Shown here piece after piece: positions 38,900 to 55,987 of a stretch of DNA of 64,000 nucleotides. This stretch comes from Treponema sp. (lineage in GTDB: Bacteria > Spirochaetota > Spirochaetia > Treponematales > Treponemataceae): contig JAEESN010000002.1 of the NCBI GenBank assembly GCA_016286365.1, positions 124,001 through 188,000 of the forward strand, given 5' to 3'. The notes under the pieces are model-generated. The model did no database searches, was not told where the DNA came from, and saw only the letters and a program-made list of their open reading frames with translations. The position numbers and the translations under genes were made by a program. Within the stretch, counting starts at the first letter, position 1, and every line of letters begins with the position of its first letter.

Positions 38900-40003
38900 T
38901 TATTTTAATGGCGGAATTGAAGATTCCAATCTTTGTGCATTAGCATGAGCTATCACTTGACCAACAGCTGTTATACTAAAATTATGCTTTATAGATTTCC
39001 ACCAATTATTTAATTTTGAAAGATTATTGAAACTCAGAAACTTTTTTTCAAAATTTTTATTTGCAAATTCTTTATTTACAGAAGAATTATCATACATTTT
39101 CCATATTTGATGAAATATTGCAATTTGTTCTGCTGTTGGAATCATTTTATTTTGTTGTGGAGAAAATGGGGCTAATACCCACATAAGATTATCAACATCA
39201 TTTTCATTCAATGCTGGTAATCTAACATAATCATCATTTAGTTCATTTGGTTGCAAAAAAGAAATTGGCAAACCATTTGATGAAAGTAATGTCATGGCTT
39301 TTTGATAATTTTCAGAATCTTTTTTTATTCCTGTATATGCATCAACAGAAAAATATTTTGCATATTTTGGAATTATATCTGTATTTGTAAATACAGGACT
39401 AATTCGTATCGCTCCCAGAATTTCTAAATTGTCTACCCATTCATACCCTGTTGGTAAAGCATCATATATAAGCTTTTCAAATAACCCTTCTAATATTTGC
39501 AGACCATTTTCCAATTGTTTATCTTTGGGAAATAAAGACATTGCCCCATGTATTACTGTTAATCCACATAGTGCATCATCATCTATTTGATCAATAATTT
39601 CTATAGCTTTCCCGATACTTGTTTTAACTTTTCTTTCATTCTTATTTTTTACATGATGAATTAAAAGCTCTGATAGTAAATCATAATCACTATCCCTATC
39701 AGTACAAGCCGCTGTCCTGTGAGCTTTGCTGATAAGATATTGAAAAGCTGGATCAGAAAAAGACTCTAAAGCACCATCAATTTTTTTCATTTTTGGAATA
39801 AGAGAGTCTTCAAATTTAGAAACTCTTTCATTTGCTATTTGTAATGCTTCAGAGGAAAACTCTTTACGAATTAAATCAAATTTTTCGTCACAAATTTCCC
39901 TTGCTCTTTTTTCATCTATTCCATTTATAATAGTCAAATTTTGTATCTGGGTTTGTTGAGAATTAGCGCCTGCTTTTTGATTTTGCTTTATTTCACTACT
40001 CAT
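38900..40003 (-). CDS. LPO_1073/Vpar_1526-like protein of a candidate defence operon
   Basis: The 367-residue soluble protein starts with a Gln/Asn-rich segment (QNQKAGANSQQTQIQN), then a helical region with ANERVSKFED and ISKAHRTAACTDRDSDYDLL. It resembles the LPO_1073/Vpar_1526 protein family, of unknown function; this match is from memory and moderate in strength. The N-terminal Q-T-Q-I segment is like the Q-x-Q-I-G segments of the preceding small membrane protein, suggesting that the two proteins self-assemble through them. It starts directly at the end of the 86-residue gene and is the last member of the operon 42960-38900. Base composition is very AT-rich. Confidence 0.6.
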   Translation of the reverse strand: MSSEIKQNQKAGANSQQTQIQNLTIINGIDEKRAREICDEKFDLIRKEFSSEALQIANERVSKFEDSLIPKMKKIDGALESFSDPAFQYLISKAHRTAACTDRDSDYDLLSELLIHHVKNKNERKVKTSIGKAIEIIDQIDDDALCGLTVIHGAMSLFPKDKQLENGLQILEGLFEKLIYDALPTGYEWVDNLEILGAIRISPVFTNTDIIPKYAKYFSVDAYTGIKKDSENYQKAMTLLSSNGLPISFLQPNELNDDYVRLPALNENDVDNLMWVLAPFSPQQNKMIPTAEQIAIFHQIWKMYDNSSVNKEFANKNFEKKFLSFNNLSKLNNWWKSIKHNFSITAVGQVIAHANAQRLESSIPPLK

Positions 40004-40264
40004 TTAATTCTCTCCAATCTGTATTTGCTCAGCATTGTTTCTTGCTCTTTGTTTTTGGGTTATTGTATTTTTAACATTATCAGAATTGTATTTTGTACCA
40101 ATTTGACTTTGTTTAGAAGCATCTTTAGCATTTTGAATCTGCTTGATTTTTGATTTGTGAATTCCAAACTTATAACCTGTAATTCCACCTATGATTAAAC
40201 CACCTAATCCTGTTATAATTGCAGTTCCAATACCACTAAAAATCCATTCATAATTATTTGCCAT
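40004..40264 (-). CDS. Small membrane protein with Q-x-Q-I-G repeats
   Basis: The 86-residue protein has one Gly-rich membrane helix near the N-terminus (about residues 8-30, IGTAIITGLGGLIIGGITG), then a basic hinge (HKSKIKQ) and a hydrophilic tail. The tail holds two similar motifs: DASKQSQIG and NNAEQIQIG. The next protein begins with the similar ANSQQTQIQ. It could place partner proteins at the membrane. It lies 3 bp from the DUF4062-like gene and abuts the LPO_1073-like gene, so it is certainly part of the operon. No family is recognised. Confidence 0.6.
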   Translation of the reverse strand: MANNYEWIFSGIGTAIITGLGGLIIGGITGYKFGIHKSKIKQIQNAKDASKQSQIGTKYNSDNVKNTITQKQRARNNAEQIQIGEN

Positions 40265-40267
40265 ATC

Positions 40268-41077
40268 TTATTTCTCCTCGTATTCATCAATTTGATCGCA
40301 AACTCTATATCCTGATGCAGTTAAATCAAATAAATTCCTTTTATAGTTTGTAGCTTTTATAAAGCCTCTATCTTCCAAGGAATCAATAGCTTCTTCGATT
40401 TCCGCCAATTGTCGTTGGTCTCTAATTAAATAACCTCCAAAAGTTGTGCCACCCATCATTTTTACAAATTGTAATTGATTTTTTTCTTTCATAATTTTCA
40501 AAACTTCAATCTCCCTTTCCGAAAATTGGACTTTTGTTTGTACCGGTTGATTCTGTATAATTATTTCTGCTAATTCTAATTCGTTAGCAATTAATTGAAT
40601 ATCATCATTCAATAAATTCTTATACTCGTCTACTGATGAAAAACTTTTATAAAATGTGCTTCCCTGAATAGATTTCTTATAATCTTGAAGCTTTTGATAT
40701 TGTTCTGAATTAAATTTATCTGGAGAAACTTGCTTATTGCTAAAATATATTATGGCTTTTTTCCCTTGTTGAATATGCTTTGTTATTTCTTCAACAGAAC
40801 CACTTGAGTATTCTGTTGTTGGAGTTCCTAGTTTTGTCCAGAAAATTGCGATTATTAAATCTGCTTGTTCCAATAATTGATGATTCAAACTTTCTTGTGG
40901 ATGAGTTCCTGAATCAGCATGAGCATTTATATCATAACCTAAAACAGAGAAAACAATGTTATGAAATCGAGAGTTTAATTCATTCCATCGATAAAGGATA
41001 TCTTTTGCAATCTCTCTTTCTTCTGAAATATCAGAAGGTGAAACAATCATTACGTTATAACAATTTGCTTGAAACAT
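40268..41077 (-). CDS. DUF4062-like (TIR-related fold) protein with winged-helix C-terminus
   Basis: The 269-residue protein starts with a DUF4062-type segment, NVMIVSPSDISEERE, followed by ADLIIAIFWTKLGTP and SGSVEEI, an alpha/beta arrangement like TIR-family domains with Glu in the position where TIR NADases have their catalytic Glu. The C-terminal ~80 residues (SEREIEVLKIMKE onward) look like a winged helix. DUF4062 domains occur in bacterial immune and NLR-like proteins. A sensor-effector role in phage defence is therefore possible, but NAD-cleaving activity is only inference. It sits 3 bp from genes on both sides. Confidence 0.65.
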   Translation of the reverse strand: MFQANCYNVMIVSPSDISEEREIAKDILYRWNELNSRFHNIVFSVLGYDINAHADSGTHPQESLNHQLLEQADLIIAIFWTKLGTPTTEYSSGSVEEITKHIQQGKKAIIYFSNKQVSPDKFNSEQYQKLQDYKKSIQGSTFYKSFSSVDEYKNLLNDDIQLIANELELAEIIIQNQPVQTKVQFSEREIEVLKIMKEKNQLQFVKMMGGTTFGGYLIRDQRQLAEIEEAIDSLEDRGFIKATNYKRNLFDLTASGYRVCDQIDEYEEK

Positions 41078-41080
41078 TTT

Positions 41081-42232
41081 CTATTCCTTATGTGTCTTCA
41101 AAACAAGCGGAGAAAAATCATCTTTTTCTTCTTCATCAAAAAAGCCTTTTTTTAATGCAAATAACTTTTCAAGTTCAGCTTTTTCCATAGATAATCCAAG
41201 AGTAGAGAACTCTTCCAATAATTCTTGCTTTGTAAAAACATCATTTTCAATCAATAGTTCTAATGCATCTTTCATTAATCTTGGATATGGAATTTCCAGA
41301 ATATTATCCAACGGTTCTGAAGTTCTCATTCCTTTTGCACTCATGGTTCTTATCATATACTGATATTGATTCATAGAAATGATACCTAATTCGCATGCTC
41401 TATGAATCATGGCACCAATAGAAACTCTCCATTTCTTTTTTAATTCTGTGTAATGAGAAATCTCTGTAGGAAAAAATCTAACATCCTTTATAAAAGATTC
41501 TTTTGGTAAAAGAAACGCTGCTGCAAACTCATTAGCTTCCTTTTCTTTTTGTTTAAATTCTTCTCTAGAACAATCTTCTAAGTCTTCATTCCACGTATGA
41601 AGAAGTATGTGTCCCAACTCATGAGCTAAATCAAAGTTTATTCTCGTAGCAGATTCTTTATTATTTGAATATGCGATAAAAAAATGTTTTTCTCCGTTTA
41701 ATCTAAAAAACTGGCTGAAAGCATCTATATCTGGAGTATTTGTTTCAAATGTTGTAACAATAATACCTTTTGCTTCTAACAATTTTATTACATTCTGTAT
41801 GGGTTTATCTCCAAGTTTCCAATAAGAACGAATATATTGAGCTGCTTCTTCAGGCGAATCATAAGTTTCAATATCTGTTGGTAAATCCAATTCAGGAAAA
41901 TTAACATATTCACTTATTACGGAAAATAATTTTGCAAATAATTGAACCTTTGTTTTTTGTTCTGTTCTATATTTCTTTGGTGTTTTCATCAGAGAACGAA
42001 AATAAGAAGAACCTATTTCCATTGTTATAGAATCATTTTGAAAGAAAAAATCAACTGGGAAATTCAATACTTGCGACAAAGATACCAATTTGTCAAATTG
42101 AGGAGTGATTTTATCCATTTCATATTGAGATTCTGCTTGTGGAGATATTTCAAGCCTTTTTGCTAGCTCATCAACTGTAAGTCCATTATATAAGCGAGCA
42201 AATTTTACTCTGGAACCATTAAACTTATTCAT
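41081..42232 (-). CDS. XRE-family HTH regulator fused to ImmA/IrrE metallopeptidase
   Basis: The 383-residue protein has an N-terminal XRE helix-turn-helix (about residues 5-65, with RVKFARLYNGLTVDELAKRL) and a central ImmA/IrrE peptidase domain with the zinc motif H204-E-L-G-H208, followed by NEFAAAFLLP. Such proteins cut and inactivate repressors or sense damage and control toxins or mobile elements. It lies 8 bp downstream of the DUF5986-like gene and 3 bp upstream of the DUF4062-like gene, so it probably regulates this operon. A second, separate ImmA protein occurs 3 kb away. Confidence 0.9.
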   Translation of the reverse strand: MNKFNGSRVKFARLYNGLTVDELAKRLEISPQAESQYEMDKITPQFDKLVSLSQVLNFPVDFFFQNDSITMEIGSSYFRSLMKTPKKYRTEQKTKVQLFAKLFSVISEYVNFPELDLPTDIETYDSPEEAAQYIRSYWKLGDKPIQNVIKLLEAKGIIVTTFETNTPDIDAFSQFFRLNGEKHFFIAYSNNKESATRINFDLAHELGHILLHTWNEDLEDCSREEFKQKEKEANEFAAAFLLPKESFIKDVRFFPTEISHYTELKKKWRVSIGAMIHRACELGIISMNQYQYMIRTMSAKGMRTSEPLDNILEIPYPRLMKDALELLIENDVFTKQELLEEFSTLGLSMEKAELEKLFALKKGFFDEEEKDDFSPLVLKTHKE

Positions 42233-42240
42233 ATTAAATC

Positions 42241-42960
42241 CTATGCTTGTTTATTAAGAAGAATTTCTTGAGATTTTAATGAAACTGATTCTTTTTCTCC
42301 CTTACGTTTTTCTGCTTTCTTTGTAATCTTCAATGCTGGCATTTTGATTTCATCTTCACTCATTTGTGCAACTGAATTATCGAAATTTGGAATAATATAA
42401 TCCATCAATTTTTCAGACCTCAATTCATTTAACATTGTATCTAATGTTTTTAAACACATATCTACAACACTCTTTTCATAAGTTGTAAATGTTAAAATCT
42501 TATAAGTTATTTTTGAAAAATCTATTGAATTAGAAAATAAATTGCACATTCTTTTTAAGCGATTTGCCAGTTCAGAATTACTGTCATTAAGATCAAAAAG
42601 AGGATTCATAGCAAATCCAAGTTCAGAATTAAGTTCTTTTAAGGCTTGAATATATAGGGGTGCATTTTTTTCAGGATTTGAACAAATTGTTTCATATCTC
42701 TTTGAATTCATTAAGGAATAAAGAGTCATATCATTCTTGTTCAAAATTAACAAGAAACTCCAACATCCAGCTTTTACAATTTTCACTTCGATGTTTTCTT
42801 CGGTTAATCTTTCTAGTATATTGGAATTTATTAAATCCCATTTCAAGGAATACTTTGAATTATTAGTATGTAATGACCTCTGTGATGTGATAGATTCATA
42901 ATCTTCGTTAATAGCTTCTGATATTGATGAATAAATTGTTTGATAAAAACTTGATTTCAT
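42241..42960 (-). CDS. DUF5986-like protein paired with the XRE-ImmA regulator
   Basis: The 239-residue soluble protein has WDLINSNI, then GCWSFLLILNKNDMTLYSLMNSKRYE, a pattern I associate with DUF5986, a family commonly found directly before XRE-ImmA genes in toxin-antitoxin-like pairs. I judge this from memory and with moderate certainty. It has no membrane helices. AAGGAGG lies upstream, with a long 12-nt spacing to the ATG at 42960. It is the first gene of the five-gene operon. Confidence 0.55.
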   Translation of the reverse strand: MKSSFYQTIYSSISEAINEDYESITSQRSLHTNNSKYSLKWDLINSNILERLTEENIEVKIVKAGCWSFLLILNKNDMTLYSLMNSKRYETICSNPEKNAPLYIQALKELNSELGFAMNPLFDLNDSNSELANRLKRMCNLFSNSIDFSKITYKILTFTTYEKSVVDMCLKTLDTMLNELRSEKLMDYIIPNFDNSVAQMSEDEIKMPALKITKKAEKRKGEKESVSLKSQEILLNKQA

Positions 42961-42997
42961 AAAGTTCTGTTACCTCCTTGTATGCTTTATATATAGT

Positions 42998-43025
42998 ATT
43001 TTACAATATTTTTAAAATATATCAA
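42998..43025 (-). promoter_or_regulatory. Putative promoter of the five-gene candidate defence operon
   Basis: On the minus strand TTGATA (43020-43025) and TAAAAT (42998-43003) are 16 bp apart, and a strong AAGGAGG follows before the start codon at 42960. The region is extremely AT-rich, so chance matches are possible. Confidence 0.4.
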
Positions 43026-43050
43026 GTGAATTTACAAAATTTTATGATTT

Positions 43051-44364
43051 TTATACTAAAAAAGTATCTTTTAACAGGCTTTGCATAAGCTGTTTTGTCA
43101 ATTTTTCACGCTCTGTGATTTGTTTTCTTAAATTAGACATTGATTGTAAGTGTTTTTCAACTTGTTTTACTATTTCTTTTTGTTCTGCAAGTGGTGGAAA
43201 TGGAATTGTGGCATTTATTATCTTTTCAAGTGTTACTCGAGTAATTGCAACTCCATACATCTGATTTCGAGTTTGTTCATAAAAACTTGGGCTTTCCATT
43301 GCAAGTTTTAAATACTTATTATCAAATCCAGTCTTTAAAAGAGCAACACTAGACAGTAAACTAAATGGCTCTTTTATCTGGTTAATACAGACTATACCTG
43401 TTGTTGCTCCATCCTTTATATATAATAAATCTCCGTATTCAACATTACATCTTGAATATATTTCATCATGTATTCCTTTTGTAACATATGTAATATCTGA
43501 TAGTTCAACTCCAGTAGATTTTATATTCTTAGCAGTAACATACATATAATCACCAACAGGTGTATTTATTGGAGAGTGATGAGTACCATCAGTTATTTTT
43601 TTACAAATCTCTCCCAACCTTACCCATTTCCATCCCTTTGGAATTTCAAAGGGTTTTTCTTCATCTGTAATTGGGGATAATTCTTTTTGTATCTTTTCGT
43701 TGTTTCGTTCTTTCTGAATCTGTTCAAACAATGCTTCTGCATCGTAGTCGGGATTGCCTTTTTGGACTGGATTCTGTTTGCGCCAGTCGGTGGTAAGTTT
43801 TCCTTCTATGGCGTCCTGTAGAATGTTTTGGCGAAGTTGTTTTATGTAGTTTTTTTGTGATTCAATTTCAACAGAAAGCTGTTCTGTTTTTTGTAATTGT
43901 AAAGAAATTTTTTTGACTATTTCTTGTTGAGTCTGTAAATCTGGTATTGAAATCTCTAATGGCAGCAGATGTTTTGGTTTTATTTCTGTTTTGATTCCAC
44001 CCTTTACTTGCTTTTGTAGAGCAGCGATAAAGGCAGGGCTTTTTACAAAATATTTGAAATAATCTAAATCAACTTTTGAACTATCAAATGTATAAGAAGA
44101 ATAATGAATTGTAGCGCACACTGGTTCATTACCTTGGTAAACGGCAACTGCACCTTTTGCAACATTGATTCCTGAAATAACCAAATCTCCTGGATGCACA
44201 ATAATCATATCAGTTTTTGTAGGTTTATCTGAGATATGAATTGTTCCAGAGAAATCTATTTTATCGAGACGCTTGTATTTTGAAATCTTTGGATCATCAG
44301 GCTTATATCGACCTTCTCGTTCTGTGAGAAAATCACCAATTTTTACTTTTTTCCATTCGCTCAT
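43051..44364 (-). CDS. hsdS: Type I restriction-modification specificity subunit
   Basis: The 437-residue protein has two target-recognition domains, each followed by a conserved helical repeat: QQEIVKKISLQLQKTEQL...KQLRQNILQDAIEGKL in the centre and EQKEIVKQVEKHLQSMSNL...KQLMQSLLKD at the end. This is the full HsdS layout, so it should recognise a bipartite DNA site. I start it at ATG 44364 (MSEWKKVKIGD), because the upstream ATG at 44376 lies inside the -10 hexamer of its own promoter. It is about 5.4 kb from hsdM and 2.1 kb from hsdR. No partial hsdS copies for recombination are seen nearby. Confidence 0.92.
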   Translation of the reverse strand: MSEWKKVKIGDFLTEREGRYKPDDPKISKYKRLDKIDFSGTIHISDKPTKTDMIIVHPGDLVISGINVAKGAVAVYQGNEPVCATIHYSSYTFDSSKVDLDYFKYFVKSPAFIAALQKQVKGGIKTEIKPKHLLPLEISIPDLQTQQEIVKKISLQLQKTEQLSVEIESQKNYIKQLRQNILQDAIEGKLTTDWRKQNPVQKGNPDYDAEALFEQIQKERNNEKIQKELSPITDEEKPFEIPKGWKWVRLGEICKKITDGTHHSPINTPVGDYMYVTAKNIKSTGVELSDITYVTKGIHDEIYSRCNVEYGDLLYIKDGATTGIVCINQIKEPFSLLSSVALLKTGFDNKYLKLAMESPSFYEQTRNQMYGVAITRVTLEKIINATIPFPPLAEQKEIVKQVEKHLQSMSNLRKQITEREKLTKQLMQSLLKDTFLV

Positions 44365-44374
44365 TATTAAACCC

Positions 44375-44383
44375 ATTATATCA
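44375..44383 (-). promoter_or_regulatory. Extended -10 promoter of hsdS
   Basis: The minus strand reads TGATATAAT, ending 10 nt before the ATG at 44364; a start 7 nt downstream leaves a leader of only a few bases. The rest of the 155-bp gap to the PIN gene (44384-44531) is AT-rich with no further feature that I can support. Confidence 0.55.
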
Positions 44384-44531
44384 TATTAAAGTGTTAAAAT
44401 ACGACCTCTCTAATAGGAATTTGATACAAATCATTCTGAAGTTAGAAAATATAGCTTCAAAGCATAAATAATTAACCTGCTATTACTTAAAAGTGGATTT
44501 ATACGCAATTTTAGGTAATGAAAAAATACTC

Positions 44532-45179
44532 CTATTTCTTTTCTTTTGGCTCTTCCGGAGGTTCTCCCATAAACTCTGCTAGTGTATTCGGAATTACTCC
44601 TTGTTTGATTTTAGGTGCGCAAAATTCTTTATATAACGATTTTAGGGCTTTCTTTTTATTTTTATTTGGATTTGTTTTATATGCAATTCCTAAAATTGAT
44701 TCAAATCCAACAATTTTAACATTTTTTAAATCTTCAAGTTCATTACACACATAACATGCGCCTAAATCTTTTGAAGAAAAGTATGGTATTCCATAATAAG
44801 AGGCATATGCAAGAGAATGAACTTCTCCCTGATTTTTATTTGGGTTAAAAGGGTTTTTCATTAAATCATGATCATGAATTTTATTAAAGATTCTCATGAA
44901 TTCAGGATCTGAATCCATTAAATCATCATCATCTACGATTTTAATTGAAGTTCCGATAAATTTATTGATTACCTTCTTTGTTTCTGAATCTAATTCATTA
45001 TAAACAACTCTATGAAGAAGAATTGTTTCAAAATAAGAAAAAATATCATCCATCCAATTTGTCTTCATATTATTAAGAGAATAAACTGGATTTATTTGGC
45101 GTTTTTCTATTCCAACCATGAATACACAAGTATCAATTATAATTGGACAGTCTTTTCTTATTTCTTCAAATGTATTCAT
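44532..45179 (-). CDS. PIN-domain-like ribonuclease of an XRE/ImmA/PIN triad
   Basis: The 215-residue protein shows the four acidic positions of PIN nucleases: Asp16 in IIIDTCVFM, Glu62 in VVYNELD, Glu119 in NQGEVHSLAYA and Asp138 in FSSKD. PIN toxins cut tRNA, rRNA or mRNA. At 215 residues it is longer than VapC toxins (about 130), with an insertion between the first two motifs and a charged C-terminal tail (PPEEPKEKK). It overlaps the ImmA gene by 4 bp and is the third gene of a coupled triad, in which XRE and ImmA presumably keep it silent. Confidence 0.75.
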   Translation of the reverse strand: MNTFEEIRKDCPIIIDTCVFMVGIEKRQINPVYSLNNMKTNWMDDIFSYFETILLHRVVYNELDSETKKVINKFIGTSIKIVDDDDLMDSDPEFMRIFNKIHDHDLMKNPFNPNKNQGEVHSLAYASYYGIPYFSSKDLGACYVCNELEDLKNVKIVGFESILGIAYKTNPNKNKKKALKSLYKEFCAPKIKQGVIPNTLAEFMGEPPEEPKEKK

Positions 45180-46042
45180 AAATTTGTCAGTCCATCCTTA
45201 ATTTGAGATTCTGACAAATTGAATTTTGTAATAATCTTATCTACCGTTGTATCATCAAGTTGACCCTTGTTGTAAAGATATGGAACTAAATTATATAACT
45301 GTTCATTTATATATTTATTCTCCGTAGAATGTAATTCCGCAATAAAAGGAATTTCTTTCGAAATATCTGAAAGAATACTTTTAACATCATTATAATGATA
45401 TATTAAAAAATCCGTAGTTAGAAAGTGCTCTTCCCTTAGCCTATATAAGACAGCTTTTAGTGGCAACGCATATTTTACAACAAGCTTAAAGCAAAAAACA
45501 ATTTGTTTATGTAAGGGAAGATCATCAAATTTTTCCTGGAATTTTTCATAACTTTCTAATTCAGATTTTAATGCTTCTTCTGGAAGCAGAAATTCTGCAG
45601 CAAATCTATTTGCTTTTATTTCCTCTTTACTATTTGTGTCGAATGAACAAACAAAAGAATTTCTTGTAGTGCCATTAAAACTAAATTGATAATGATAGTA
45701 TTCATGGGCTGCAGCAAATATTTGATTTATAAGAGGTTTACTACTATTTATAACAATATATTTTCTAATTGAATTTTTTGAATACTTGATAATCATAGCA
45801 TCAACTTGAGACTTATTAAAATCATGAAGTTGAAAAACAATATCTTCATTTTGACTTATCAATGAAAATATATTGGTTCCGATTGGTGCTGTGAAGCCAT
45901 AAGCCCCACGTAAATCTTTTGATTGTTTTTTTATTAATTTTATTTCGGCTGAAGATAATTCTCCTTCCCCAAAAATATATTGCTTTTGAGAAAGTGTAGA
46001 AAACAAATCTTCTTTATCTGCAATTGATGCCTCTGCTTTCAT
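45176..46042 (-). CDS. ImmA/IrrE-family metallopeptidase
   Basis: The 288-residue protein contains the zinc-peptidase motif H113-E-Y-Y-H117 and the following ANRFAAEFLLPEEAL segment typical of ImmA/IrrE. The C-terminal ~100 residues are helical. It has no DNA-binding domain; that is supplied by the preceding XRE gene, which it overlaps by 4 bp. It probably cleaves that repressor on a signal, releasing the downstream PIN protein. Confidence 0.88.
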   Translation of the reverse strand: MKAEASIADKEDLFSTLSQKQYIFGEGELSSAEIKLIKKQSKDLRGAYGFTAPIGTNIFSLISQNEDIVFQLHDFNKSQVDAMIIKYSKNSIRKYIVINSSKPLINQIFAAAHEYYHYQFSFNGTTRNSFVCSFDTNSKEEIKANRFAAEFLLPEEALKSELESYEKFQEKFDDLPLHKQIVFCFKLVVKYALPLKAVLYRLREEHFLTTDFLIYHYNDVKSILSDISKEIPFIAELHSTENKYINEQLYNLVPYLYNKGQLDDTTVDKIITKFNLSESQIKDGLTNL

Positions 46043-46380
46043 TTTTTAACCCTATCATATAATGCAAATAAGTATTCTCTGATTTCAATTTTCTCAAGTA
46101 TAGCGTCAAAACTATCTTTATCAGCTTTTGCAATATTACCCATTAAATATGCAGAAGGCTTATCTTCTGTTGATTCCCAATATTCATCAGCACTTCGACC
46201 TGTGAGTTCACAAAATTTTGCAAAAACAACTTTAGAAGGTGCTCGCTTTCCTAGCTCATACATAGAAACTAAAGAGTGGTTTTCCAATTCCAATTTACCA
46301 GCAAAGTCAAGCTGAGAGAGTTTGTGGACTTTGCGGAACTCCTTCACATCAGCTGAAAATTTCTGTAAATTAAAATTCAT
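46039..46380 (-). CDS. XRE-family transcriptional regulator
   Basis: The 113-residue protein has one helix-turn-helix of the XRE/Cro type (about residues 8-65, VKEFRKVHKLSQLDFAGKL then NHSLVSMYELGKRAPS) and a short C-terminal helical tail. It is the first gene of the XRE-ImmA-PIN operon. A perfect palindrome upstream is the likely autoregulatory operator. AAGGA precedes the ATG. Confidence 0.92.
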   Translation of the reverse strand: MNFNLQKFSADVKEFRKVHKLSQLDFAGKLELENHSLVSMYELGKRAPSKVVFAKFCELTGRSADEYWESTEDKPSAYLMGNIAKADKDSFDAILEKIEIREYLFALYDRVKK

Positions 46381-46402
46381 AGTTTATCCTTCCTTTACTC
46401 AT

Positions 46403-46449
46403 ATTATAACATATATTTCGACAAAAATGTTACAAATTGTAACATTTTT
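46403..46449 (-). promoter_or_regulatory. Promoter and 27-bp palindromic operator of the XRE-ImmA-PIN operon
   Basis: TGTTATAAT (46403-46411 on the minus strand) is an extended -10 box. Upstream, 46423-46449 is a perfect 27-bp palindrome: 13-bp arms, AAAAATGTTACAA and its complement, around a central A. It covers the -35 position, so binding of the XRE protein would repress. As RNA the palindrome folds into a stem followed by U residues and may also terminate hsdR transcripts, which end 35 bp before it. Confidence 0.65.
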
Positions 46450-46483
46450 TTTTATATCCGCCAAGAGGGGCTTTTTGTTTAAT

Positions 46484-48913
46484 TTACGCTGCGCTGTAAA
46501 TCTCGGCTTCGAGTTCGCGGATTGCCTGGAGATACTGTTGTTTGCCTCCGAAGAGATTTACGATTTCTGCCGGGGTTCCAATTTCTTTGATTGGATCTAC
46601 GGTGAGAACTTTCATATCTTCTATTTCTTCGATTCCGGTCTGGGCGTATTTATCTAAAAGGGCATCTAAAACTTTTCGGGCTTTATCTCCGTATTTGGTC
46701 CAGTAGTTTCGTTTGCGGACATTTTCAGCGCGTTCTTTTCTTGTAAGGGCTGGAGCATCCCAGGCGATGTGGCAGATGAGGTCAAAAATATCCAGGTCAT
46801 TTTTGATTTCATCTTTCAGCTCTTCAAAGATAATTCCCTGATTTTCGAGTTCTTCTATAATTGCGCGCTTCTTTTCTGCATCATTCCAGGTCTGCAAGAA
46901 ATTGTCGAGTGAACGATATGAAGTGAGGATTCCTGTTTTGCAATATTCTTTTACGCTTGTTGTAATAAGACGGCCGTCTGCATCCAGATACTGTTTGCGT
47001 TCGCTTAAGATGCTTACATCTACGCCGTTTACATAAAGCTTTGGCTTTGGACCATAAGATGGAGTTTCTTCGCCAAGCTCATATCCATCAGGATCGTCAT
47101 TTCCGTATACAACTTCGGTAAACTCAACTTCTTCTCCGGTAACCGGGTCAATCTGTTCTTCGCCAGTGCCTTCGTCAATGATTTCTTCTGAAAGCTTGTC
47201 ATCCTGTTTTGATTCTTTTATGCGTACCGGTGCACCGTCAAAATCTTTATCTGCAAATTTGTCTGTTACATTGCGGAAGTCGATTATCGTAAAATACTGC
47301 TTTCCGTATTCTTCGTTGATACGAGTTCCACGGCCGATAATCTGCTTGAACTCTGTCATGGAGCCGATGTTTTCATCAAGACAAATTACCCTACAGGTCT
47401 GGGCATCTGTTCCTGTGCTCATCAATTTTGAAGTTGTAGCAATTACAGGGAATTTCTGTTCGGGATTTATAAAATCTTCAAGATATCCTTTTGCAACCGG
47501 ATCATCACCAGTAATGCGGACTATGTATTTATCTGAACGGGCCGTAATTTCTTGTGGCGCATATTTTAGAAGTGCTTGACGCATTCGTTCTGCATGTTCA
47601 ATATCTACACAGAAAACAATTGTCTTTGCCATTGGATCTGAGTTTGTAAGATATTCCATAATCTTTCTGGCAACAAGCTCTGTTCGTTCATCAATTACAA
47701 TGTTGCGGTCAAAATCTTTTGTGTTGTAAAGGCGGTCTTCTATAAGCTCGCCGTCTATATCAGTTTTGCCGCGTTCAGGACGATAGCCTTCAAGATCTAT
47801 ATTCATTCCAACGCGAAGAACTTTGTAAGGAGCTAAGAAGCCGTCATCAATTCCCTGTTTGAGAGAGTAGGTATAAATCGGCTCTCCAAAATATTCGATA
47901 TTCGAAAGTGCCTTTGTTTCTTTTGGAGTAGCAGTCATACCAATTTGAGTTGCACTCGAAAAATATGAAAGAATCTTGTGCCAGGCCTTGTCTTCATCAA
48001 CTGAACCGCGGTGACACTCATCAACAATAATCAAATCAAAGAAGTCTGGACTGAACTGTTTGTAAGCGTCAGTTTCTTCATCATAATTTGTAAGCCCCTG
48101 ATAAAGAGCAAGATATATTTCATAAGACTTGTCGATGTGCTTATGTCTGATGATGTGGCACTTATCTTTGAAGTGCTTAAAATCGCCTTTCTTTGTCTGA
48201 GTGATAAGATTATTGCGGTCTGCTAAATAAAGGATTCGCTTTTTACAGCAGGCTTTCCAAAGACGATAGATAATCTGAAATGCTGCATAAGTTTTTCCTG
48301 TTCCTGTTGCCATTACAAGAAGGATTCTGTTTTGACCACGTGCAATTGCTTCTACCGTTCTGTTGATTGCAATTCGCTGATAGTATCTTGGAGCGCGGCC
48401 TGTTGAATCAAAGTAGTAGGAACAAAGAGATGTGTCTTCTTCCTCTTTTGAAGCAAGTCCGTTGTAATGTTTATAGCAAGACCAAAGTTCATCCGGAGTT
48501 GGAAAATGTTCAAGGTCTGCATTTTCTGAAACAATGGCTTTGCCGTCAGCGCCATGTGGCCCGCAGTTTTTGCGATATTGGATTACAAATCCATCTCCAT
48601 TACTTGAAATTGCAACCGGAATATCAAGAGTTCCCGAGTATTCCAAAGCCTGCTGCATTCCGGCTCCAACTGTGTGAGTGTTGTCTTTTGCTTCTACAAC
48701 TGCAACTGGAATATTCGGTTTGTAATATATGATTATATCAGCGCGTTTTTTCTCGCCACGCTTTGTCTTTTTTCCTTTTACAAAAATACGTCCTGCAGTA
48801 AAAGTCACTTCTTCGCGAATCTGAGACTGCTTATTCCAGCCGGATTGCTCAATTGCAGGGAGAATATATTTTGTGATGATGTCGCGTTCGGATAAAGACT
48901 TCTTAGAATCCAT
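46484..48913 (-). CDS. hsdR: Type I restriction endonuclease subunit R
   Basis: The 809-residue protein has the N-terminal PD-(D/E)xK nuclease (Asp59, Glu74-Ala-Lys76 in VVEAKD), then superfamily 2 helicase motifs: Walker A MATGTGKT (201-208), DECH (298-301), and motif VI GRGTRINEEYG. The C-terminal region (about 640-809) should bind the methylase core. It translocates and cuts unmethylated phage DNA together with HsdM and HsdS. No ribosome-binding site precedes the ATG; an extended -10 lies 8 nt upstream, so a leaderless message is likely. It is the first gene of the island next to the tRNA. Confidence 0.95.
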   Translation of the reverse strand: MDSKKSLSERDIITKYILPAIEQSGWNKQSQIREEVTFTAGRIFVKGKKTKRGEKKRADIIIYYKPNIPVAVVEAKDNTHTVGAGMQQALEYSGTLDIPVAISSNGDGFVIQYRKNCGPHGADGKAIVSENADLEHFPTPDELWSCYKHYNGLASKEEEDTSLCSYYFDSTGRAPRYYQRIAINRTVEAIARGQNRILLVMATGTGKTYAAFQIIYRLWKACCKKRILYLADRNNLITQTKKGDFKHFKDKCHIIRHKHIDKSYEIYLALYQGLTNYDEETDAYKQFSPDFFDLIIVDECHRGSVDEDKAWHKILSYFSSATQIGMTATPKETKALSNIEYFGEPIYTYSLKQGIDDGFLAPYKVLRVGMNIDLEGYRPERGKTDIDGELIEDRLYNTKDFDRNIVIDERTELVARKIMEYLTNSDPMAKTIVFCVDIEHAERMRQALLKYAPQEITARSDKYIVRITGDDPVAKGYLEDFINPEQKFPVIATTSKLMSTGTDAQTCRVICLDENIGSMTEFKQIIGRGTRINEEYGKQYFTIIDFRNVTDKFADKDFDGAPVRIKESKQDDKLSEEIIDEGTGEEQIDPVTGEEVEFTEVVYGNDDPDGYELGEETPSYGPKPKLYVNGVDVSILSERKQYLDADGRLITTSVKEYCKTGILTSYRSLDNFLQTWNDAEKKRAIIEELENQGIIFEELKDEIKNDLDIFDLICHIAWDAPALTRKERAENVRKRNYWTKYGDKARKVLDALLDKYAQTGIEEIEDMKVLTVDPIKEIGTPAEIVNLFGGKQQYLQAIRELEAEIYSAA

Positions 48914-48973: not shown

Positions 48974-49010
48974 CATAAAAAAAGACTTTCCGATTTCTCA
49001 GAAAGTCTTT
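48974..49010 (-). terminator. Rho-independent terminator
   Basis: AAAGACTTTC (48981-48990) and GAAAGTCTTT (49001-49010) form a perfect 10-bp stem; on the minus strand it is followed by a run of seven or more T. It would stop minus-strand transcription running past the structured repeats before the hsdR promoter. Confidence 0.8.
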
Positions 49011-49016
49011 GCAGTA

Positions 49017-49129
49017 TAGCGGGGGCAGGACTCGCCGTTACAGTCGCAGACGTCCTGTCGTCGATTCCTAAAAAACGCTGCGCCACTGCTCGCCTTTTTT
49101 AGGACCACTCACTCCGCTTCGAGTCCTGC
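49017..49129 (-). repeat. Structured repeat element, copy A, with tRNA-fMet 3'-end sequence
   Basis: Copy A begins with TAGCGGGGGCAGGACTCG (49017-49034), identical to the last 18 nt of the tRNA-fMet gene. GCAGGACTCG (49025-49034) pairs with CGAGTCCTGC (49120-49129), closing the element. Inside are CCTAAAAAA (49067-49075) against TTTTTTAGG (49095-49103), and GACG (49049-49052) against CGTC (49059-49062). The loop holds CTGCGCCACTGCTCGC (49078-49093), shared with copy B. No protein is encoded. Confidence 0.6.
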
Positions 49130-49187
49130 GCATCTTTCTCAGGTTATTCTTGTATTTCGAGTTTAAAACAAAGAAAGTCTTTTTAGA

Positions 49188-49349
49188 TAGCGGGGGCAGG
49201 ACTCGGGGGTTTCAGTTTCCGCCATCCTTGGCTCCAACTTCCACCCCCGGCTTCGTTCACTAACAGCGACGTCCTGTCGCTGTTCCACCAAAATTACTGC
49301 GCCACTGCTCGCAATTTTGGTGTCGTTCACTCCGCTTCGAGTCCTGCCC
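49188..49349 (-). repeat. Structured repeat element, copy B, with tRNA-fMet 3'-end sequence
   Basis: Copy B repeats the plan of copy A with different stem sequences: closing stem GGGCAGGACTCG (49194-49205) with CGAGTCCTGCCC (49338-49349), inner stems CACCAAAATT (49286-49295) with AATTTTGGTG (49313-49322), and AACAGCGAC (49262-49270) with GTCGCTGTT (49276-49284). The loop CTGCGCCACTGCTCGC (49297-49312) is identical to copy A. An extra GC-rich segment (49206-49258) is absent from copy A. Confidence 0.6.
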
Positions 49350-49364
49350 GAATGGTTGTTTAAA

Positions 49365-49399
49365 ATAAAAAAAGCGTTTCCTGTTCGAACAGAAAACGC
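49365..49399 (-). terminator. Terminator of tRNA-fMet
   Basis: GCGTTT (49374-49379) and CTGTT (49381-49385) pair with AACAG (49388-49392) and AAACGC (49394-49399) across one mismatch. On the minus strand the hairpin starts 4 nt after the tRNA and is followed by a T-run. Confidence 0.85.
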
Positions 49400-49403
49400 A
49401 TGT

Positions 49404-49476
49404 TAGCGGGGGCAGGACTCGAACCTGCGGCCTCCGGGTTATGAGCCCGACGAGCTGCCAACTGCTCTACCCCGCG
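49404..49476 (-). tRNA. Initiator tRNA-fMet (anticodon CAT)
   Basis: The minus strand folds into a complete cloverleaf of 73 nt: acceptor CGCGGGG/CCCCGCT, D-arm GAGC/GCTC, anticodon arm TCGGG-CTCATAA-CCCGG, T-arm GCAGG-TTCGAGT-CCTGC, discriminator A. The anticodon is CAT. The initiator features are present: no Watson-Crick pair at 1:72 (C against T) and three G-C pairs at the base of the anticodon stem. CCA is not encoded. Its 3' end faces the defence island. Confidence 0.96.
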
Positions 49477-49592
49477 TCGTATTTTTGGTATTATATGGAG
49501 TTATCTTAGAATTGTCAAGAAAAAAAATGGGCAAAATGGGAATTTTTTTGTGTTTTTTAATAGAGGATTGAAGATATATTTTTTTTAGAGGG

Positions 49593-49747
49593 GAGGACGG
49601 AGCAGATTATTTTAACATAAAGTAGAAAGAGTGTAGGTTAAAAGATTATTTTGTAGAAAATAATTATCAGAGAAATTATATTTTTATTCCCCAGAAGGCG
49701 GCGCAGATTATGTTATCATACAATAGAAGAAGTAAAGGTTAAAATCC
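49593..49747. repeat. Two diverged direct repeats of about 55 bp
   Basis: In the 273-bp gap between the tRNA and the prsW-like gene, about 49593-49646 and 49693-49746 align along their whole length; both contain GCAGATTAT and GGTTAAAA at the same spacing and agree at roughly three quarters of positions. The remainder of 49477-49592 is AT-rich. I can assign no function. Confidence 0.5.
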
Positions 49748-54130: not shown

Positions 54131-55987
54131 TTATTCAGCCGGGATGGTGATTACTGTTCCGGAAATAATGTGATCAGGATTTCTGATTCCGTTATAGCTT
54201 GCTATTTTTTTATATTTCCATGGATTTTTATAGTAAGTATCTGCAATATCCCAGAGAGTATCTCCCCATTTGATTTTATATGAAACACCTTTGCGATTTA
54301 CTGTATTGTTTACAGGAGTTACCTTATCGCCGTCTGTGATTACGATGATTTCGTTTTCTTTTGCGGCAATTGCTTCTGAACCGGCTGATGTTTCTGTTAC
54401 GGTTACATTGCTCTTAAGTTCGTATTTTGTAGGAAGGAAAATCAAAAGCAGAATTGTAACAAGAATACAGACTGCGGCACAGCCTATGCATACAAACATA
54501 GGTATTTTGATTTTCTTCTTTGTTTCTGAATCTTCGTGTGATGCAGATTCGCCCATTTCGGTTTCTTTGTCGTAAAGCCCTGTAAAACTGAGCGCGTTTC
54601 CAGCTGCAACCGGTTCGGAAGAAGCATCGTCTGCGATTGGGTCTGCCGGAGCATCAAATATATCGTCTGCAGCAGGAATGCTTTCTGCGGCTGCAAAGTC
54701 GTCGGCAGCAGGGGTGTCTGCAATACCGAGGGAATCGTTGGCAGCGGCAAATGAGTCGTCGGCCGGGGCATCAAAAATGTTTTCTTCGGCTGCAGGGATA
54801 TCGTCTGCAGGAGCAATGTTTTCTGAAGCTGCAAAGTCGTCTGCAGGGGCAGCAAATACACTGTCGTCAGAAACTGTATCTGCAGGGGCTTCAAAAGAAT
54901 CTTCGGCAGGTGTGCTGTCTGCAGCTGCAAAGTTGTCCATTGAAGGAATGTCTGCGAGGGCGCTGTTATCTGCAAGGCCTAAAGAATCATCTGCGGCTGC
55001 AAATGAGTCGTCTGCAGGGGTATCGAATATATTTTCATCGGCGATTGTTTCTGTAGCGTCGCCTGAGTCACTTGTGTCGGTCGGAATGTCTATGTCGCCA
55101 AGATCTGCAAGGTCCGAAACTTCTTCGGAAGAAGAAATGTCGTCGGCTGCGGCAAAGTCGTCTGTGGCTGTGTCTGTTGGAGTAGCGAATGCATTGTCGT
55201 CAGAAATTGTATCTGAGGCTGCAAAATCATCTACGGCAGGCATGTCAGCGAGTCCGAGAGAATCGTCAGCAGGAGGCTCTGCCGGTATATCTGCAAGATT
55301 CATTGCATCATCTGCAGCCGGTTCTGCAGGCGCCTCGAATAAATTGTCGTCTGCGATTGTTTCGTCTGTTGTGCCGGAGTCTGTCGGAATGTCTATGTCG
55401 CCTAAGTCTGCAAGGCCTAATGAATCATCAGCGGCGGGCTCAGAAGGAATATCTTCGAGTATCATAGAGTCATCAGCTGCAGGAATATCATCTGCAACCG
55501 GGGCAGCAGGAATATCAGCCAGGACAAGAGATTCATCTGCTGGCGCTGTGAATGCATTATCATCAGCTGCTATCATGGATGGATCCTGGAAATCGTCTAC
55601 AGTGGCGAGTTTTGCTTCGGAAAGAGTGTAATCGTCGGTTGTAAGGCGTTCTTCTGCAGTTCTGTTTATTAAAGAAATCTCGGAATCGCTTTCGGCTCCG
55701 GTTTCTGGATCAATTATGTTTGCTGTTAATTCATTATTTTCATCAAGCGCAATCTGGAAAGAAAGGTCAACTTCGCCATTTGGATGCTTATTTAGATTTT
55801 CAATCTGGAGGGTATCTATATATTCTGCATCATCCATTGAGCCGGTAGCGGAACGATATAAATCTACCATTACCCTTGTCTGGTTATTGTGAGCTGTAGT
55901 TAACTGTAATTTCTTTGTCTGAGCGGAACCTTCTTCCATCACAGGAAAAAAAGTACCGTCCGCAAGTTTAATTCCGATTGTCTTCAT
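54131..55987 (-). CDS. Membrane protein with acidic Ala/Asp-rich repeats and C-terminal LysM domain
   Basis: The 618-residue protein has an N-terminal globular part (about 1-110), a long low-complexity region (about 130-460) of irregular Ala-Asp-Asp-Ser/Ile-Pro-Ala repeats, one membrane helix (about 497-519) and a LysM domain at the end (about 570-618, GDTLWDIADTYYKNPWKYKK). The N-terminus and acidic repeats should be cytoplasmic, and LysM should bind peptidoglycan outside. No ribosome site is seen; TATAAT lies 8 nt before the ATG, which predicts a leaderless message. It is the first gene of the LysM-SLT operon. Confidence 0.85.
   Translation of the reverse strand: MKTIGIKLADGTFFPVMEEGSAQTKKLQLTTAHNNQTRVMVDLYRSATGSMDDAEYIDTLQIENLNKHPNGEVDLSFQIALDENNELTANIIDPETGAESDSEISLINRTAEERLTTDDYTLSEAKLATVDDFQDPSMIAADDNAFTAPADESLVLADIPAAPVADDIPAADDSMILEDIPSEPAADDSLGLADLGDIDIPTDSGTTDETIADDNLFEAPAEPAADDAMNLADIPAEPPADDSLGLADMPAVDDFAASDTISDDNAFATPTDTATDDFAAADDISSSEEVSDLADLGDIDIPTDTSDSGDATETIADENIFDTPADDSFAAADDSLGLADNSALADIPSMDNFAAADSTPAEDSFEAPADTVSDDSVFAAPADDFAASENIAPADDIPAAEENIFDAPADDSFAAANDSLGIADTPAADDFAAAESIPAADDIFDAPADPIADDASSEPVAAGNALSFTGLYDKETEMGESASHEDSETKKKIKIPMFVCIGCAAVCILVTILLLIFLPTKYELKSNVTVTETSAGSEAIAAKENEIIVITDGDKVTPVNNTVNRKGVSYKIKWGDTLWDIADTYYKNPWKYKKIASYNGIRNPDHIISGTVITIPAE

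Follow-up and report, generated by a model that had tools for sequence, protein, structure and literature searches.

What are the two structured repeats that lie beside a tRNA-Met gene in this Treponema genome, and what does their conserved pairing serve? An earlier note on this DNA had described two copies, A and B, with a common closing stem, an identical 16-nt loop and inner stems that differ in sequence and yet pair in each copy. All of these were found in the window, by which we mean the whole 64,000-nucleotide stretch analysed here (G000:C29:124001-188000 of the 2.68-Mb genome). Only two exact copies of the loop, CTGCGCCACTGCTCGC, exist genome-wide, both at this locus.

The repeats downstream of tRNA-Met

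Both elements lie downstream of tRNA-Met and, like the tRNA (49404-49476), read in the sense of the minus strand. The features of the locus, in the direction of the tRNA, are as follows.

49490..49518, minus strand: tRNA promoter, TTGACA-17-TATAAT (consensus scan, 12/12 matches)
49404..49476, minus strand: tRNA-Met (CAT), whose nt 56-73 are the sequence X copied by the elements (ARAGORN, Rfam)
49365..49399, minus strand: terminator 1 after tRNA-Met, GCGTTTTCTG TTCG AACAGGAAACGC and a T run
49194..49349, minus strand: element B, complete, with 5' arm, core and 3' arm (covariance model, 138 bits)
49336..49349, minus strand: 5' arm of B, reverse complement of the tRNA-Met T-loop/T-stem/acceptor (GGGCAGGACTCGAA; 14 nt, 100%)
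49286..49322, minus strand: hairpin 1 of B, with conserved loop GCGAGCAGTGGCGCAG
49262..49284, minus strand: hairpin 2 of B
49204..49249, minus strand: hairpin 3 of B, type II, with internal loops GGA/GGA and GGA/GAA
49188..49205, minus strand: 3' arm and tail of B, direct copy of tRNA-Met nt 56-73 (CGAGTCCTGCCCCCGCTA)
49140..49186, minus strand: decayed terminator and spacer of the second unit, with half of hairpin AAAGACTTTCTTTG left (sequence)
49025..49129, minus strand: element A, internally deleted (model match 75 bits, alignment gap)
49118..49129, minus strand: 5' arm of A (GCAGGACTCGAA)
49067..49103, minus strand: hairpin 1 of A
49017..49034, minus strand: 3' arm and tail of A, direct copy of tRNA-Met nt 56-73
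48981..49010, minus strand: terminator after A

Element B is complete. Copy A has lost one strand of the P1b stem and one half each of hairpins 2 and 3. Accordingly, the short inner stem GACG/CGTC that had been assigned to copy A is made of the leftovers of two hairpins. An Rfam scan found only tRNA and no other known RNA family.

Several other features of the neighbourhood were recorded. Directly downstream of the elements, window 38900-48913 holds type I restriction-modification, ImmA/IrrE-like and other defence-type genes, among them an HsdR-like gene (46484-48913) and a specificity-like gene (43051-44376); hsdM likewise follows tRNA-Met in other species (loci L231 and L111). Just upstream of the promoter region of the tRNA are two unexplained 51-nt direct repeats (49593-49643 and 49694-49744), 78% identical and 101 bp apart. 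A LysM-type protein with long degenerate acidic repeats (DDSLGLADIP-like) is encoded at 54131-55987.

A family whose arms copy the host tRNA

A repeat family, as had been proposed, does exist, and it is both unusual and widespread. DNA searches detected related copies in the same genome and in most genomes of the genus. A covariance model built from 16 copies of several species, a kind of search that the earlier note had called for, gave 7 matches in the own genome and matched 135 of 196 genus genomes, with the pairing kept in relatives; the carriers include named Treponema, among them three T. bryantii strains, B25, XBD1002 and NK4A124. At the level of the order, 169 of 294 genomes and 53 of 83 genera had matches, and a few genomes from other classes of the phylum matched as well. 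The elements are gene-free and about 105-160 bp long.

The element follows tRNA genes. The own genome has 43 tRNA genes in its 2.68 Mb, and each of its 7 matches stands 33-275 nt downstream of one of them, in the same orientation (Gln, Met (2), Thr (2), Pro and Arg); no match was found in this genome outside tRNA neighbourhoods. When loci of the genus were fetched, 99 of 106 matches followed an intact tRNA gene, most of them at a distance of 45-80 nt or within an array; 6 of the others followed a tRNA 3' fragment and 1 was at a contig end. Among 46 matches in other families of the order (2 same-family loci included), 40 followed a tRNA, 3 a tmRNA and 1 a tRNA half. The tmRNA 3' ends of L159 (in tandem), L170 and L190 carry the element. 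Altogether, about 25 tRNA species and tmRNA serve as hosts: Met, Arg (GCG, TCG), Gln (TTG, CTG), Pro (TGG, CGG), Asn, Thr, Glu, Ala, Ser (TGA, CGA, GCT, GGA), Gly, Leu (TAA, CAG, TAG), Lys, Asp, Tyr, Val, Trp and His.

Moreover, the arms are specific to the tRNA. The 3' arm repeats nt 56-73 of the host tRNA exactly, from T-loop C56 to the discriminator base, and usually measures 18-19 nt; the 5' arm, 9-22 nt long, carries this region as its reverse complement. Both vary with the T-stem sequence of the host. Compared with all other tRNA types, the own tRNA gave the best fit to the 3' arm in 86 of 99 cases and to the 5' arm in 77 of 99. At locus L036, the inverted copy extends 6 nt beyond the tRNA into the gene flank, indicating that it was copied from DNA and not from the mature tRNA. 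Retrovirus-like priming by a mature tRNA on the inverted arm was therefore rejected; in addition, no TGG precedes the arm. Neither the link to tRNA and tmRNA genes, nor the tRNA-specific arms, nor the filled and empty sites described below had been part of the earlier note.

Searched phage records contained no match to the element, and a phage origin was rejected: the copy on the single viral contig that has one adjoins a tRNA-Arg of bacterial type with prophage genes next to it. In loci L037, L040 and L049, an end sequence, GGGTTCAGTTCA, interrupts elements and in L049 stands beside a transposase end, so that the elements are themselves targets of an insertion sequence. A DUF3800-XI RNA (RF02975) lies about 640 nt downstream of a tRNA-Gln element in a T. 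bryantii genome (L096:1502-1552). A literature search on such repeats in Treponema or on RtT returned nothing on the subject.

Fold of the core and the strand that may form it

In the core, the P1b stem, which has internal loops, encloses hairpins 1 and 2, and hairpin 3 comes after it. The modules vary: hairpin 1 can be replaced by GCCGACCGAATAGGGAGGAA, and hairpin 3 occurs in two types. The minus strand of element B folded with -80.3 kcal/mol (z = -9.1), and 0 of 200 shuffles were as good. Across 16 copies from several species the structure paired in 96.1% of cells and 32 of 49 pairs were changed on both sides, values to be read knowing that the structure was derived from the same sequences, which favours it; 0 of 500 shuffles reached them, and slid controls paired in 31-44%. 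In one copy the tandem G.A of P1b is replaced by two A-T pairs. The fold is thus conserved.

The earlier note had read the covariation as selection on an RNA or cruciform structure. Compensatory pairing across species supports selection on pairing, whereas the scarcity of G-U pairs points to DNA over RNA: they made up 59 of 4090 stem cells (1.4%), against 179 of 1998 (9.0%) in tRNA stems of the same loci. Within the internal loops, G.A/A.G mismatches were kept in 12-16 of 15-16 copies at most tested positions; where the tRNA-sense strand has these stable mismatches, the complementary strand would show C.T. With DNA energies, the sense strand folded better than its complement in 5 of 5 tests, Escherichia coli included. 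These results suggest that the folded tRNA-sense strand is under selection, as single-stranded DNA more than as RNA. Alternatively, suppression by hairpin-templated repair could account for the scarce G-T. In well-paired columns, 43 G-T mismatches were counted against 15 A-C, which fits selection on the sense strand and does so for RNA and single-stranded DNA alike.

The E. coli tyrT/RtT repeats, known for decades, have a similar appearance. These (RttR, RF00391) are 178-bp tandem units downstream of tRNA-Tyr, each closed by the pairing of a terminal copy of the tRNA 3' end (AATCCTTCCCCCACCACCA) with an inverted arm (GGGGAAGGAT) around a hairpin core; the closing stem of Rfam's RtT structure agrees with this reading. 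The Treponema element follows the same plan, with the 3' end of the upstream tRNA repeated at the end of the unit, an inverted arm that closes it and units standing in tandem, as they do in K-12. The two are of the same build, a statement on architecture and not on shared descent: there is no sequence relationship, and the RtT model at its gathering score matched nothing in the window or in the Treponema loci searched. The E. coli repeats, looked at only at tRNA-Tyr, also differ in having no terminator between the tRNA and the repeats. The tyrT repeat was present in 4680 of 5426 E. coli genomes, at 1-9 places each, and absent from the rest.

RtT has been annotated and treated as an RNA and not as a mobile element, and the Treponema element might likewise be a structured RNA that is read through from the tRNA promoter, cut out as RtT RNA is, and tunes tRNA processing or termination, its arms making the RNA fold beside the tRNA precursor or pair with it. 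Such an RNA would agree with the covariation, with the constant position of the element downstream and in the sense of a tRNA that has a strong promoter, and with the annotation of the tyrT repeats of the same build as the small RNA RttR (Rfam RtT matches of 133-138 bits). In most loci, however, a strong terminator separates the tRNA from the element. A consensus scan detected no promoter between the tRNA-Met terminator and the element, so that transcription would be possible only through read-through from the tRNA promoter. Together with the near absence of G-U pairs and with a direct copy that reaches the last tRNA base and brings a new terminator, which is more than pairing needs, these observations make such an RNA unlikely in our estimation.

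Filled and empty sites and a possible mobile cassette

Loci with orthologous tRNA-Met genes were compared as filled and empty sites. L226, L237 and L239 are empty, with tRNA, terminator and flank in succession, and L095 has the same terminator and flank with one unit placed before them. Similarly, L231 has tRNA, terminator and hsdM, and in L111 a unit stands ahead of the same terminator and hsdM. In L248 the tRNA is followed by the leader of an island integrase, and L238 has one unit in between; the same pattern was observed between L236 (empty) and L242 (filled). For every pair, the filled site minus the empty site equalled X, terminator, spacer, reverse complement of X and core, so presence and absence are unit-sized. 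A site with the element thus has an intact tRNA, a displaced 3' fragment as a direct repeat and matching empty sites. Precise deletion between the 18-bp direct repeats, i.e. the copies of X, could equally give rise to empty sites. Insertion is favoured over loss where the unit interrupts a junction of tRNA and integrase that is common to most islands.

Exchange of cores was also apparent. In G192, the cores at Arg-GCG, Arg-TCG and Gln-TTG were 90-92% identical, while the terminators and spacers were unrelated and the arms were each gene's own. Conversely, the tRNA-Met locus of the window (G000) and that of a relative, G168, aligned with near-identical tRNA, terminator 1 and spacer, whereas the core was changed hairpin by hairpin with its pairing kept. 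Shared cores in the one case and swapped cores in the other indicate that cores move between tRNA loci or recombine among them.

Taken together, we consider at about even odds (a probability near 0.5) that the repeats are copies of a mobile-type, non-coding DNA element whose insertion sites are the 3' ends of tRNA and tmRNA genes. We infer here movement rather than loss, a single-stranded DNA form and a site-specific recombinase. The unit is about 170-220 bp long and consists of X (nt 56-73 of the tRNA), followed by a terminator, a spacer, X in reverse complement and the hairpin core. If it inserted at the T-loop, the tRNA would gain a fresh 3' end and terminator, and the old ones would be displaced downstream; the tRNA would thereby stay whole, and repeated insertion or duplication would give tandem arrays. 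On a single tRNA-sense strand, X could anneal to its reverse complement, giving a duplex that has the tRNA-end sequence and is held by the hairpin core. In the most likely model, this folded strand would be the substrate of a putative recombinase supplied in trans and would be exchanged with the tRNA end. As for the arms of a new tRNA, recombination between the cores of resident copies would be enough for the cases seen.

The same observations might arise with no dedicated mobility, if tRNA ends were duplicated in tandem and old, vertically inherited elements were kept alike by direct-repeat slippage, hairpin-templated repair and gene conversion. Near-identical tandem units in G187 and G014, core identities of up to 100% between sister species at the same tRNA, and the swap between G000 and G168 with everything outside the core retained all agree with such processes. 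They leave unexplained, however, why the same core has host-specific arms at so many tRNA species and tmRNA in many genera, and why the element lies between the tRNA and an island integrase in L238 and L242. We regard this explanation as improbable.

Far less probable still is that the element is an attachment-site accessory or a by-product of tyrosine-integrase islands using the same tRNA genes. Islands of 26 kb (G100, 454-aa tyrosine integrase) and 19 kb (G213, 483-aa tyrosine integrase) do occupy such genes, splitting Met and Arg tRNAs. They enter at the anticodon loop, however, whereas the repeat of the element begins at C56, and many islands have no element. Moreover, in both G100 and G213 the element stands at the far end of the island, after the tRNA half that was displaced. 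It was thus present before the island and uses another crossover place, which rules it out as a part of these anticodon-loop islands. Crossovers in the anticodon loop and at the T-loop or T/acceptor junction are both known kinds in Islander (PMC4383910). Like the islands described there, the element targets tRNA and tmRNA genes, restores the 3' end and displaces the old one; unlike them, it has no integrase and no cargo, measures about 200 bp and contains an inverted copy of the target end and a structured core.

Candidates for the enzyme were sought among known systems. None of the element copies examined had a unit with a gene of its own. The earlier note had suggested looking for a partner transposase of the REP/RAYT type; the element resembles REP as a small extragenic hairpin repeat, but it is tied to tRNA ends and not scattered between genes, and Y1 transposase (PF01797) was not associated with it: 46 of the 135 element-bearing genomes had the family, as did 15 of the 61 others (Fisher p = 0.24). 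Such a partner was accordingly discarded.

Integron attC and CTX phage attP sites are active in a folded, single-stranded form, in which unpaired bases set the choice of strand and sequence is little constrained. Our model would liken the element, used in folded form, to these recombination sites, from which it differs in that its ends copy a tRNA. An integron integrase (TIGR02249, cut-off 265 bits) is encoded in the own genome (G000:C31:279513-280448, 401 bits) and in 67 of 294 genomes of the order, but hits over the cut-off were not associated with the element (40 of 169 genomes with it, 27 of 125 without; p = 0.78). Integron R boxes (GTTRRRY / RYYYAAC), looked for by eye, were absent from the element ends, which are tRNA sequences. 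Identity with attC was rejected on the missing association and on the confinement of the own-genome matches to tRNA neighbourhoods. In a PF00589 search, G159, a 93% complete genome bearing the element, had only two Xer-like genes, suggesting that the enzyme may be a host factor, act rarely or be of another kind.

More broadly, and with less confidence, we propose that gene-free cassettes travelling as folded single-stranded DNA, with the inverted host-tRNA end as attachment stem, are widespread, and that E. coli tyrT/RtT is a second branch of them; this possibility is at present somewhat doubtful. For annotation, the copies matter as a source of numerous partial tRNA ends and through their location at integration hot spots. 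The E. coli tyrT/RtT repeats are no longer an isolated oddity but one case of a broad architecture, which also occurs in Treponema and other spirochaetes. If the element is mobile, few tRNA-targeting elements would be smaller than this one, whose ends reproduce the target, and one core could live at many tRNA and tmRNA genes. Mobility would then raise the question of what enzyme recognises a folded strand when its stem is formed by the end of the host's own tRNA gene.
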